From Chloroflexota bacterium (lineage in GTDB: Bacteria; Chloroflexota; Dehalococcoidia; JACQUO01), in the NCBI GenBank assembly GCA_016210205.1, contig JACQUO010000001.1, positions 1-53,462 of the forward strand: DNA of 53,462 nt, written 5' to 3'. The notes under the pieces were generated by a model. It was not told where the DNA came from and searched no databases. It worked only from the letters and a program-made list of their open reading frames with translations. This document shows, one piece after another, positions 13,609-37,426 of the stretch. The stretch's first letter is position 1. Every line of letters begins with the position of its first letter. The translations under genes and the position numbers were made by a program.

Positions 13609-14359
13609 ATGTTTCTCTGTTACTTTGACGAATCAGGGGACGCGGGAGTCCCATCAGCAACAGTTCACTCTCCTACGGACTGGTTTGTCCTCAATTGTGT
13701 TTTAGTGCACGAGTCTGCTTGGCTCGATACGCTCAATTCCCTAGTACATTTACGGGGGATGCTGCGGGATGACTATGGTCTGCCGCCAAGGGACGAGTTG
13801 AAGGGCACTCATTTTCGAAGGGCGGGGAATTGGACGCACTCAGCGGATGGAGATTTACCGTTTCATTATGAATTCTCAGGCCAGTCTCCCCATCAAGACA
13901 TTTTCTATTGCAGTCCAAAAGCAACAGGCTAGCACAAAGGGGTGGGACCCACGGTATTGTGCTTGGACTTTTGCGTTTCAACGATTAGATACGATGTGCC
14001 GCAAACAGAACGACAGATGTATCATATTTCCTGATGAGGGGCATGGTTTCTTTATAAGGCAGCGAATTCGCTCTATGCGGCGTTATCATCAAATTCCTAG
14101 GCATTTTGGCCCAGGTTCTTTTCCGCTTCCAATCGTTCGAATTATTGAAGACCCAAATGATAGGCGTTCAGAAGATTCATACTTTGTGCAGTTGGCCGAT
14201 ATGAACGCCTATGCGAGCCACCGCTCGTTGAACGTGTGCCCGGTTAGGAAAATGCCCAATGATATGTGGGATAGCCTTTCTACGGTTGGTGGTGATGCTA
14301 GACTGCTTGAAGTAAATGCGGTGCGTGGTGGCCCACCTGGTATCGTGAAATATCCATAA
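13609..14359 (+). pseudogene. DUF3800 protein, interrupted by a single-base frameshift
   Basis: Two reading frames together make one 249-aa DUF3800 protein. 13609 to about 13820 gives the N-terminal FLCYFDESGDAG motif and ELKGTHF. From about 13822 the next frame continues RGRGIGRTQRMEIYRFIM, then IKTFSIAVQK and IIFPDEGHG, to 14359. Skipping one base near 13819-13822 (around CGAAGGGCGGGG) restores an uninterrupted protein. DUF3800 is an RNase H-like fold found often in mobile or defence settings; its function is unknown. Base composition is clearly more AT-rich than the flanks, suggesting acquisition. The shift could be real decay, a sequencing or assembly error next to a G-run, or less likely a programmed +1 shift. 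Confidence 0.8.
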
Positions 14360-14427
14360 AAACCCGAACCCCGCTCTCGCGAGGTTCGGCCCGTCCTAGG
14401 CCAGCACAGGCTGGGTTCAGACGGTTC
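14358..14427 (-). ncRNA. Candidate small RNA: two hairpins and a Rho-independent terminator
   Basis: A predicted transcript of about 70 nt starts near 14427, just after a strong promoter. First comes a two-tier hairpin: CCGTC pairs with GACGG, enclosing CCAGC paired with GCTGG. Then comes a continuous stem CCGAACC-U-CGC closed by a GAGA tetraloop and followed by GUUUUUA, a textbook terminator. It contains no ORF. It lies downstream of the GNAT gene, whose transcripts would end at the same terminator. The family is unknown to me. The call rests on the promoter, fold and terminator only. Confidence 0.6.
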
Positions 14428-14433
14428 ATTGAT

Positions 14434-14462
14434 ACTATAGCATCGCAGTTCTATAATGTCAA
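14434..14462 (-). promoter_or_regulatory. Strong promoter of the candidate small RNA
   Basis: Perfect TTGACA (14457-14462 on minus), 17 nt spacer, extended -10 TGC-TATAGT (14434-14439). The only thing downstream before a terminator is the 70-nt structured segment. The extended -10 core GCGATGCTATA is shared with the promoter at 37398-37426. Confidence 0.75.
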
Positions 14463-14516
14463 GTTGATGATAGCACAATTGTTTTAACTGACCATGCAGT
14501 GAACTGTGCCCCTCTC

Positions 14517-17803: not shown

Positions 17804-18292
17804 TTATTTGGTCAAGAGGATTTGTTCTAAAATCTCAAGGATTGGAATCACGTTAGTGTAATAGTCTTCCATGTCACGAAGAGTTAACTGAAATTTATTT
17901 GTGCCATGAGCTATTTGATTCTTGGTGTTAACTATACTAGTTAATGAAGTGCCTTCCTTGCCATTATGGGGGATCTTTTCCACGAATTTACTTTTGTATT
18001 CGGGACTGAACTGCCCGAGGAGGCCACTAATAGTGCCATGTTCAGGGTTTGAAAACAGTTTATGAACTACCTCACGGACATAATTAACGAGTTCGGCATC
18101 TTGATGTTTTTTGGCCCTTTCCGCGACTAAGTTTTCTACACACTCTTCTACTACCCCCGAAAGCACGACACATAAATAGTTTGCTAAATGAGCACCAAGC
18201 TTATCGTTGCCTTGCGACCAGACTTTTAAGTCGGCCAAAAGAGTATTAATCTCGTTACATCTTCCTGTAACATACGGGTGCTGCGGAGTCAC
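17804..18292 (-). CDS. HEPN-domain protein, putative RNase partner of the DUF262 protein
   Basis: 162 aa, all helical, resembling RiboL-PSP/MAE_28990-type HEPN proteins. The C-terminal motif VNTKNQIAHGTN fits the HEPN signature (R/K-N-x-x-A-H), which forms the RNase active site in dimers; here Lys replaces the usual Arg. The GTG start at 18292 overlaps the DUF262 stop (GTGA), so the two are translated as a pair. HEPN proteins are common toxins and defence nucleases, and the pairing with DUF262 fits that. The region is AT-rich compared with its neighbours and was probably acquired. Targets are unknown. Confidence 0.7.
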   Translation of the reverse strand: MTPQHPYVTGRCNEINTLLADLKVWSQGNDKLGAHLANYLCVVLSGVVEECVENLVAERAKKHQDAELVNYVREVVHKLFSNPEHGTISGLLGQFSPEYKSKFVEKIPHNGKEGTSLTSIVNTKNQIAHGTNKFQLTLRDMEDYYTNVIPILEILEQILLTK

Positions 18293-19320
18293 TTAAAGAG
18301 AACCTCTTGGGCAAGTTTGATTCGGTTCTCTACTTTGTCCTCATCAGTGGTATGCTGACTTATCGCTTCTATATAGCTAGGGTTTTCTTTAAGTGTTTGA
18401 AACCGATCTTGAATATTCGCGGGTATGCTGGGCGAACGCGCAAAAGCAACCATAACAGAGTCCAATACGGCAACGTTGATTCTAGCCCCTATTCGAAACG
18501 GACTGGGGCCGAGGGCTTCAGATACCTTCTCGGTAGTCTCTAGAAATAATTGTTCATATCGGCCTAAATTTGGTTCGTCCCTGTGTTGCCCCATGAACTT
18601 GTTTAAAAACTGCCACATTGGTTTATTGTACTGATTCCCCCCTTCATTCAAAGCCAAGAATCTCACTATCAATTCTATATCGCGCATCCGAATATCAGGT
18701 TTGCTCACTCCCAAAATGCGGCGCCACGCCGAGTCGCTGTTTAATTCAACTACTAAATCATTAAATGGGCCAAGGAATTTACAGTTACGAATCTCCTGAC
18801 GGGTAAGGGGTGTTCCCCCGGTATTCAGCCGCTCAAAAATGAGATATATGCTAGTAGTGTCGTTAGGATCAACTTGCTCGACTGTTATTTGTCTAAGTGT
18901 CGCATCTCGCAAACGTATCCGGTCCCCTTCATCTAGACTTTCGTAAGTCTTTCCTTCCCAGCGCGGGTCTACGCTTTTCAGAAAAAACACCTTGCCGTTT
19001 TCAAATTTTCCATCAAAAAATCCCCAGATCGTTTTTAGCCGTTGCTGGCCGTCTATTACCACTTGTTTTTGTGAAAGGTCTTTATAAACAAAGATGCTTG
19101 GCACTGGTAAGCCTAAAAGGAAAGACTCTATTAATTTGCTTGCCTGCTCGTGTTTCCATACCCATTTGCGCTGAAACTTCGGTATAATAATTTCTTCGCG
19201 AAGGTGTTTTTGATGCAAATTTTCCAGTGTGGGATCTGCTGGATAAGAGACGATATTATATATAGGGACACCAATTAGCGCGTCTTCTTTTTCGGTGTTT
19301 TCGAGTTTTAAGTCGCTCAA
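18289..19320 (-). CDS. DUF262 (GmrSD N-terminal-like) protein
   Basis: 343 aa. The ParB/sulfiredoxin-like DUF262 fold carries IPKFQRKWVWK near residue 46 and the diagnostic VIDGQQRLKTI near residue 88, which is nucleotide-binding or nucleolytic in GmrSD, BrxU and SspE. A helical domain follows (residues about 200-340). There is no DUF1524 HNH domain, so this is the short form, with the separate HEPN gene perhaps supplying nuclease activity. The start is TTG 19320 after AAGGAG. A role in anti-phage defence is inference from family and context. Confidence 0.82.
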   Translation of the reverse strand: MSDLKLENTEKEDALIGVPIYNIVSYPADPTLENLHQKHLREEIIIPKFQRKWVWKHEQASKLIESFLLGLPVPSIFVYKDLSQKQVVIDGQQRLKTIWGFFDGKFENGKVFFLKSVDPRWEGKTYESLDEGDRIRLRDATLRQITVEQVDPNDTTSIYLIFERLNTGGTPLTRQEIRNCKFLGPFNDLVVELNSDSAWRRILGVSKPDIRMRDIELIVRFLALNEGGNQYNKPMWQFLNKFMGQHRDEPNLGRYEQLFLETTEKVSEALGPSPFRIGARINVAVLDSVMVAFARSPSIPANIQDRFQTLKENPSYIEAISQHTTDEDKVENRIKLAQEVLFK

Positions 19321-25410: not shown

Positions 25411-25583
25411 CTAGCATGGTGCTGAAAAAGAGGTGTTCAGAGGGGCGAAGCCCCTTTGACGGGGGTCTGGGGCCTGCCCTTGAGCGAAGCGAAGGGGTGT
25501 CCCCCAGCTCTAAATCCATCCCCGAAGGGGATACCTTGAACCCCCTTGAAGGGGTTGGGGGGTGTTTTTCAGCCGCCTGCTAG
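25411..25583. mobile_element. MITE-like repeat, copy E (173 bp, terminal inverted repeats)
   Basis: The ends form inverted repeats: left CTAGCATGGTGCTGAAAAA (25411-25429), right the complement of CTAGCAGGCGGCTGAAAAA (25565-25583). Inside are GGGGCGAAGCCCC, a CTTGAGCGAAGCGAAGGGG module, GGGGGTGTCCCCC, and CATCCCCGAAGGGGATACC. Copy K (35882-36030) has the same ends and interior. There is no ORF, so it would need a transposase in trans. It lies between two terminators in the bfr-lar gap. Confidence 0.7.
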
Positions 25584-25607
25584 GGGAGGGACTGATTCCC
25601 CAAGTAA

Positions 25608-25640
25608 TTAAGGGGCGGAGTGCTCTCCGCCCCTTAATAA
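25608..25640. terminator. Bidirectional terminator downstream of bacterioferritin
   Basis: A perfect 13-bp stem TTAAGGGGCGGAG (25608-25620) and its complement (25625-25637) close a TGCT loop, flanked by A/T-rich sequence on both sides. It sits 22 nt beyond the bfr stop. Confidence 0.8.
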
Positions 25641-25661
25641 AGCTTGGCCCTAGATTTGGAC

Positions 25662-26126
25662 CTAGACCTGGACGGACAGGAAGTTCTCCAGGCCCATCTG
25701 CCCCAGTTGGGTCTGCTGGGCCTCCAGCTCCAGGAGGTGTACTTCCTCATCCTTCAAGATGCCCTCCAGGATCTCTCGGGTGCCCTCGTCCCCAGCCTTT
25801 ACGGCCACCGCTACGCCCTTGTTGTAGCGAGCGACGGCCCCCACCTCCAGCGCTGTGTCGTTCTTAACCATCAGAGGCACATCCTTGCCGATGGTCATCT
25901 TGAGGGGAGGGTTGACCATGGGTATGCCTTCCAGGTAGATGATGCGCCCGATGAGCTTCTCGGCGTGCTTCATCTCCTGGATGGCCCGGTCCCGGATGAG
26001 CTTGTGCAGCTTTCCGTACTTCCAGTTCTCACACAGCTCCGTATGGACGAAATACTGGCTTATGGCCGTTAGCTCTGCTTGCAAGGCATCGTTGAGGACT
26101 GCTATGACCCTGGGGTCTCCCTTCAT
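25662..26126 (-). CDS. bfr: Bacterioferritin
   Basis: 154 aa four-helix ferritin-like protein. Diiron ligands are recognisable: Glu18 in LQAELTAISQYF, Glu and His in EMKHAEKLI (about 51-54), Glu94 in ALEVGAVARYN, and Glu/His in KDEEVHLLELE (about 127-130). A heme-ligating Met is possible at 52. It stores iron and detoxifies it with peroxide or oxygen as a 24-mer. The ATG follows AAGGAG. It is monocistronic, with its own promoter (26194-26223) and terminator. The leader carries a GGCCAGC-GA-GCTGGCC hairpin (26159-26174). Confidence 0.93.
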   Translation of the reverse strand: MKGDPRVIAVLNDALQAELTAISQYFVHTELCENWKYGKLHKLIRDRAIQEMKHAEKLIGRIIYLEGIPMVNPPLKMTIGKDVPLMVKNDTALEVGAVARYNKGVAVAVKAGDEGTREILEGILKDEEVHLLELEAQQTQLGQMGLENFLSVQV

Positions 26127-37016: not shown

Positions 37017-37352
37017 CTACCGGCCGTCGGCCAGGGCCATGCATTCCTTGGACATGATTTCCGCTTCGATTTCGTCGATGTAGCCCACATAGGGGCACCA
37101 GCCGTGCTCCAAGGCCGCCTGCTCGAACCAGGTGGCCTCCTCAAGCTCGTCCTCTTTTAGCTCGAAGGCCCGGCCCAGCTCGCTCAGCTCATCCTCGAAG
37201 AGGGGCAACTCGGTCACCGCCGCCTCGGCCAGGAAGTCCCAGGACCCGCCGGCCCAAATCTCCTCGGCCAGGTCCACCGTCTCTTGGGTCACCATCTCCG
37301 GGGCGATGTCCCAGCCCCCGCCCAACTCCTCGTAGAGCTCTATGTTCTTCAT
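37017..37352 (-). CDS. Small acidic protein, first gene of an unrecognised operon
   Basis: 111 aa, strongly acidic, rich in Trp, Leu and Glu (MKNIELYEELGGGWDI; EEATWFEQAALEHGWC), predicted helical. CAAGGAGGAC gives a strong RBS. Promoter at 37398-37426. It is paralogous in outline to the 79-aa protein two genes on. The function is unknown; a small protein complex, anti-toxin-like or peptide-precursor role are all open. Confidence 0.7.
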   Translation of the reverse strand: MKNIELYEELGGGWDIAPEMVTQETVDLAEEIWAGGSWDFLAEAAVTELPLFEDELSELGRAFELKEDELEEATWFEQAALEHGWCPYVGYIDEIEAEIMSKECMALADGR

Positions 37353-37397: not shown

Positions 37398-37426
37398 AGT
37401 ATAGCATCGCTAGAGGCCCCTGTCAA
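37398..37426 (-). promoter_or_regulatory. Strong promoter of the small-ORF operon
   Basis: Perfect TTGACA (37421-37426 on minus), 17 nt, extended TGC-TATACT (37398-37403). Confidence 0.8.

Follow-up and report, generated by a model that had tools for sequence, protein, structure and literature searches.

What is a near-consensus promoter doing in front of some 70 nt of structured RNA that stops where a neighbouring protein gene ends? The locus lies in a stretch of 53,462 nt from a Chloroflexota bacterium (hereafter the window) and is read on the minus strand, toward the 3′ end of a plus-strand DUF3800 gene. Promoter scoring places a −35 box, TTGACA, at 14457–14462 and, after a 17-nt spacer, a −10 box, TATAGT, with a TGC extension at 14434–14439; the promoter as a whole (14462–14434) scores 11/12 and has the extended TG. 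The RNA is predicted to start at 14427, which is 7 nt downstream of the −10 box and at the base of its first stem (P1), and the structured segment covers 14358–14427, as judged from its fold, its z rank and homologs with compensatory stems. It ends in a U-run, GUUUUUA (14357–14363), that shares 2–3 nt with the DUF3800 stop codon (TAA, 14357–14359). The segment holds no credible ORF, since the ATG at 14429 precedes the predicted start by about 2 nt and its frame passes through the terminator; a leaderless ORF from this ATG, which would have a 4-nt discriminator, was rejected.

Promoters scoring at least 11/12 with the TG occur twice in the window: at the RNA and at 37426–37398, where TTGACA/TATACT with the same GATGCTATA extended −10 precedes an ORF at 37352. 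Another ORF, between 39725 and 39360, is framed by a perfect TTGACA-18-TATAAT and a 7-bp stem with a T-run. Given these two cases, the host plausibly uses promoters and terminators of the type seen at the RNA gene. The surrounding DNA has further features of its own. A weaker promoter-like site with TG, TGGTCA-16-TATCAT (14467–14494, minus strand; 9/12, putative), lies upstream of the RNA promoter, and a putative plus-strand site, TTGATA-17-TATAAT (14429–14457; 11/12), overlaps it, so that two sigma-70 promoters, both near consensus, face each other within 14429–14462 and make up an imperfect inverted repeat of 34 bp. The plus-strand member would transcribe antisense into the adjacent GNAT gene and is not obvious in the flanks of homologous loci. 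Between the GNAT stop codon and the RNA promoters, a second inverted repeat, GCACAGTT...AATTGTGC (14474–14512), is a possible operator.

The RNA itself is predicted to fold into two hairpins. In the first, which forms the conserved core (14391–14424), P1 (CCGUCU/GGACGG, 14424–14419 with 14396–14391) encloses P2 (CCAGC/GCUGG, 14414–14410 with 14405–14401) across a 4×4 internal loop, GAAC/CCUA. The second is the terminator stem-loop of 11 bp with a GAGA loop (14364–14389). The predicted free energy is −40.1 kcal/mol (z = −5.3; no shuffled sequence was equally stable), and the RNA ranks third by z in a sliding scan of 4,451 stretches of 73 nt. Nearly all of it is paired: apart from the tail, the longest unpaired run is about 4–5 nt. 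The initial annotation, made from the letters of the window, had proposed this strong extended promoter, a transcript of about 70 nt with two hairpins and a terminator, and the lack of an ORF, and it stands on each of these points; the internal loop and the overlap of the U-run with the DUF3800 stop codon are additions to it. Elsewhere in the window, a very stable hairpin with a comparable z lies directly 3′ of an ORF ending at 25662 (25574–25646, minus strand).

Searches that started from the RNA alone returned no relatives. Against Rfam there was no match at the gathering threshold, and at E ≤ 10 there were weak terminator-like matches and no DUF3800 family, which agrees with the initial annotation in calling the RNA undescribed. 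A DNA search of 197 class relatives, the genome itself, phages and plasmids gave short chance matches only. With a single-sequence covariance model, the matches in 294 class genomes were unrelated terminators or coding sequence, and a second match in the genome itself also looks like coding sequence; an exact RNA pattern had one match in viral contigs, a chance one inside a phage coding region. Gene order was of equally little help. Of 80 collected loci around coaBC, the gene that forms an operon with GNAT upstream of the RNA, 53 were searched and the RNA was in none; a search for GNAT homologs found none. The CoaBC relatives are mostly Dehalococcoidia records and at most about 63% identical, and the nearest relatives compared belong to the same class; with relatives at that distance and the searched coaBC loci free of the RNA, ordinary synteny is unusable as a conservation test.

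The gene that the RNA runs into is a different kind of guide. It is AT-rich within a GC-rich genome and was assigned to DUF3800 (13609–14359, plus strand) by PF12686 (5e-08), homolog alignment and its reading frames. Those frames (13609–13932 and 13847–14359) are broken by one indel near 13850–13880, next to an intact RNA; the frameshift may be real or an assembly error, and unless it is an assembly error the pair may be decaying at this locus. Relatives of the protein are encoded by Rhodococcus opacus plasmids, Rhodococcus phage Sleepyhead, Gordonia Beenievirus phages, a few viral contigs and two other Chloroflexota genomes (G463 and G651). In the Gordonia phages the gene adjoins the immunity repressor, with an integrase nearby. 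Such a spot is a usual place for prophage-encoded protective genes. The family alignment has an invariant YxDExGD along with other acidic residues. An AlphaFold2 model of a viral-contig DUF3800 (L242), built on an alignment of five viral-contig proteins, reached a pLDDT of 77.5 and a pTM of 0.82, and its best PDB neighbours in Foldseek are RNase HIII/HII (probability 0.85–0.99, TM about 0.4–0.5, with weak E-values of 0.04–0.13). DUF3800 is regarded as an RNase-H-fold nuclease, and its association with noncoding RNAs has been noted earlier (PMC10910872; PMC12669027).

At the 3′ flanks of these DUF3800 genes the same RNA architecture recurs, convergent with the gene, in the two Chloroflexota genomes (L128 in G463, L250 in G651), on the R. 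opacus plasmids (L234 and L235), in phage Sleepyhead (L236), in the Gordonia phages (L237) and in viral contigs (L240–L243). It can be written P1-[SAN]-P2-[SUA]-GG-P1′, usually followed by a separate terminator at the DUF3800 stop. The innermost pairs of P1 are nearly always U-G and C-G; the 5′ strand of the internal loop is SAN (mostly GAA), and the 3′ strand ends in SUA before the GG of P1′. The P2 loop has 4–5 nt and usually ends in AU, from which the CUGU of the window RNA departs. None of the ten relatives matched an Rfam family. No such RNA was seen at the DUF3800 flank inspected in a further genome (L251 in G344), and two other sequences (L244 and L245) end before that flank.

Across ten loci the stems are rewritten and the pairing is kept. 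In a structural alignment made by hand around the loop motif, with some members close to each other, all 60 P1 cells are paired, with three to five kinds of pair at positions 3–6, and so are all 30 cells of the inner three pairs of P2; among 20,000 reshuffles of the 3′ arms, none paired P1 equally well. The alignment was built by structure because MAFFT alone misaligned the short cores. One alignment (A9) was left out because it contains chance matches, and a covariance model from three close members (R2), which missed distant members including the window RNA, was dropped as a class finder because it was too narrow. Where a promoter can be recognised, its −10 box mostly ends 7–9 nt ahead of P1, which puts the expected transcript start at P1 or close to it; the Rhodococcus loci and L172 (described below) have no clear sigma-70 consensus. 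The initial annotation had considered that homologous loci might keep the terminator and lose the promoter and first hairpin. The reverse was found, with the first hairpin kept, the promoter mostly kept, and two viral-contig homologs (L242 and L243) that have no separate terminator, P1 itself preceding the T-run.

A motif descriptor of this architecture, run over 1.26 Mb, gave 20 matches, of which 18 are at DUF3800 3′ ends (several of them repeat one place, being near-identical phages or window copies that overlap) and 2 elsewhere, the latter equal to the 2 matches in a Markov background. The descriptor also predicted a new member, L172 (in G542), which had not been used in writing it. There the RNA lies 32 nt beyond the DUF3800 stop in the correct orientation, with a terminator hairpin next; no good sigma-70 match was found upstream of it.

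The placement of the RNA turns out to extend beyond this class. Among 106 DUF3800 loci gathered from class and phylum relatives, the Rfam families DUF3800-IX (L138, L140, L164, L165, L168 and L173), DUF3800-VII (L144 and L146) and DUF3800-III (L208) all run convergent to DUF3800 and finish at its stop or close to it; most have a promoter of the TTGACA type. At one gene (L164, minus strand) DUF3800-IX occurs twice in tandem, at 2130–2195 and 2269–2338. DUF3800-VI (L149, 2114–2166, minus strand) is the exception, lying upstream of its DUF3800 on the same strand, and is of the cis-reg type in Rfam. A convergent promoter was counted when it was aimed at the 3′ end of the gene with its −10 box 45–130 nt from the stop, and 359 other long ORFs of the DUF3800 and coaBC loci served as control genes. 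Promoters of at least 10/12 were found at 30 of 105 DUF3800 genes versus 4 of 359 controls (Fisher p = 2.6e-17), and promoters of at least 11/12 at 16 of 105 versus 0 of 359 (Fisher p = 1.8e-11); on the sense strand of the same DUF3800 flanks the counts were 4/105 and 0/105. The rule does not hold everywhere, as a strong convergent promoter is missing from about 70% of the surveyed loci. Many of the promoter-predicted convergent RNAs fall outside the Rfam families (examples are L154, L166, L175, L177, L204, L217 and L224). Structured RNAs without an Rfam match, most of them with a strong promoter and convergent to DUF3800, are present at these loci and at L196, L197, L200, L212 and L230, and the set (L154 to L230) probably comprises several further RNA classes.

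Rfam already holds RNA families named after DUF3800 (DUF3800-I, -IX and others), and by its features the window RNA is best explained as a new class of these known DUF3800-associated RNAs, in no Rfam family: it is a structured RNA adjoining DUF3800, convergent, with its own promoter and an end at the stop, and it shows compensatory changes across loci in the hand-made structural alignment. The closest parallel is DUF3800-IX (RF02968; 67 nt), which is likewise convergent at the DUF3800 3′ end, with its own TTGACA promoter and a U-run at the stop, and in which the closing stem is also followed by GAA ... UA and then GG. DUF3800-IX differs in forming a three-way junction with two inner hairpins, its closing stem doubling as terminator, whereas in the window RNA there is a single inner hairpin and the terminator is a stem of its own; even a search at E ≤ 10 gave no match of the window RNA to RF02968. 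The GAA ... UA-GG junction common to both hints at kinship, as a lead rather than a demonstrated homology. DUF3800-VII (RF02967; 90 nt) and DUF3800-III (RF02962; 108 nt) have the same position and orientation to DUF3800 but are larger, with another fold and other conserved sequence.

The reading that we favour, with a probability of about 0.8, is that the window RNA is the RNA gene of a two-part DUF3800–RNA module, and that as the cognate ligand it would keep the nuclease inactive or direct it. The initial annotation had instead seen a free-standing trans-acting sRNA, in which a short RNA from a strong promoter pairs with distant mRNAs. Its own promoter and terminator and the lack of an ORF would suit such an RNA, but hardly any unpaired stretch could serve as a seed (the longest internal run is about 4–5 nt), Hfq was not found in the genome (87.5% complete, so its absence is not final), and the relatives adjoin DUF3800 genes across phyla and on plasmids and phages. 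We therefore regard this part of the annotation as quite improbable; its remark that the RNA sits at the edge of a DUF3800 gene proved to be the key to the RNA and not a coincidence, the relatives being convergent to DUF3800 as well. An RNA so placed might act in cis as an antisense RNA, setting DUF3800 expression through converging transcription or pairing with the 3′ UTR. The strong promoter facing the gene and the 2–3 nt over its stop codon fit this idea; against it, there is almost no overlap with the coding region, and mere antisense action would not need a conserved internal loop within rewritten stems. It is improbable, if the least so of the alternatives.

Two further explanations dispense with a functional RNA gene, and both are very unlikely. 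The segment follows the GNAT stop on the strand that encodes GNAT, and its terminator is a good one, so it could be no more than the terminator and 3′ UTR of the coaBC-GNAT operon, its promoter having arisen by chance; yet it is hairpin 1, not the terminator, that recurs with compensatory changes, the neighbours differ at homologous loci, and no control gene among the 359 has an 11/12 promoter toward its 3′ end. The AT-rich gene in a GC-rich genome and the homologs on phages and plasmids would also be compatible with the end of a mobile element, its hairpins recognised as DNA, but the promoter is set for transcription to start at P1 (in most promoter-bearing loci), U-run terminators are present, and a search for a matching element at the other end found none.

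How the two-part module might work can be sketched from the pattern of conservation. The constant internal loop (5′ CU-GAA / UA-GG 3′) would be the site that the DUF3800 protein recognises, and the freely changing stems would merely hold it; the RNA would bind the nuclease as its ligand and alter its activity, and the pair may act in defence or as a toxin–antitoxin system. The working analogy is with type III (ToxIN-like) toxin–antitoxin systems, in which a small RNA encoded beside a nuclease is its partner. In those systems the antitoxin RNA consists of tandem repeats and is encoded ahead of the toxin, on the toxin's own strand. The window RNA, by contrast, is single, convergent, on the opposite strand and has its own promoter, and the protein looks RNase-H-like, not ToxN-like. 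DUF3800 proteins linked to Cas12a2 and Cas13 (TPR-DUF3800) are a further parallel, DUF3800 being described there as an RNase-H-fold nuclease linked to RNA (PMC10910872; PMC12669027), but the window DUF3800 stands alone, and no CRISPR genes were seen beside DUF3800. An antitoxin-like role may be entertained at somewhat less than even odds; a role as activating cofactor or guide is on the unlikely side, and so is a role of some other kind. The antitoxin is slightly favoured over the cofactor on two grounds: a strong promoter dedicated to the RNA, and an intact RNA beside a broken protein frame, as if the toxic half had been lost first; the frameshift carries less weight here in that an assembly error could account for it. 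The window also holds, some 3.5 kb away from the RNA, a GmrSD-N (DUF262) protein gene (17804–19320, minus strand; strong PADLOC match to NsnA, 3e-66, and also to PD-T4-2_A) adjoining a gene for a HEPN-domain protein, likely a two-gene defence pair.

DUF3800-linked RNAs have so far been catalogued as several separate motifs without known function. Most of the known ones encountered here follow a single positional rule (convergent, with their own promoter and an end at the DUF3800 stop), which also points to many more, and the internal-loop motif links the new class to DUF3800-IX. With relatives in phages and plasmids of the cultivable genera Gordonia and Rhodococcus, the function of a DUF3800 RNA becomes testable in the laboratory. 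Tentatively, and a little short of an even chance, DUF3800 with a convergent RNA may be a widespread RNA-gated nuclease, immune or toxin–antitoxin, of bacteria, plasmids and temperate phages, in which the loop would be recognised and the stems and classes would turn over fast, with many still uncatalogued.
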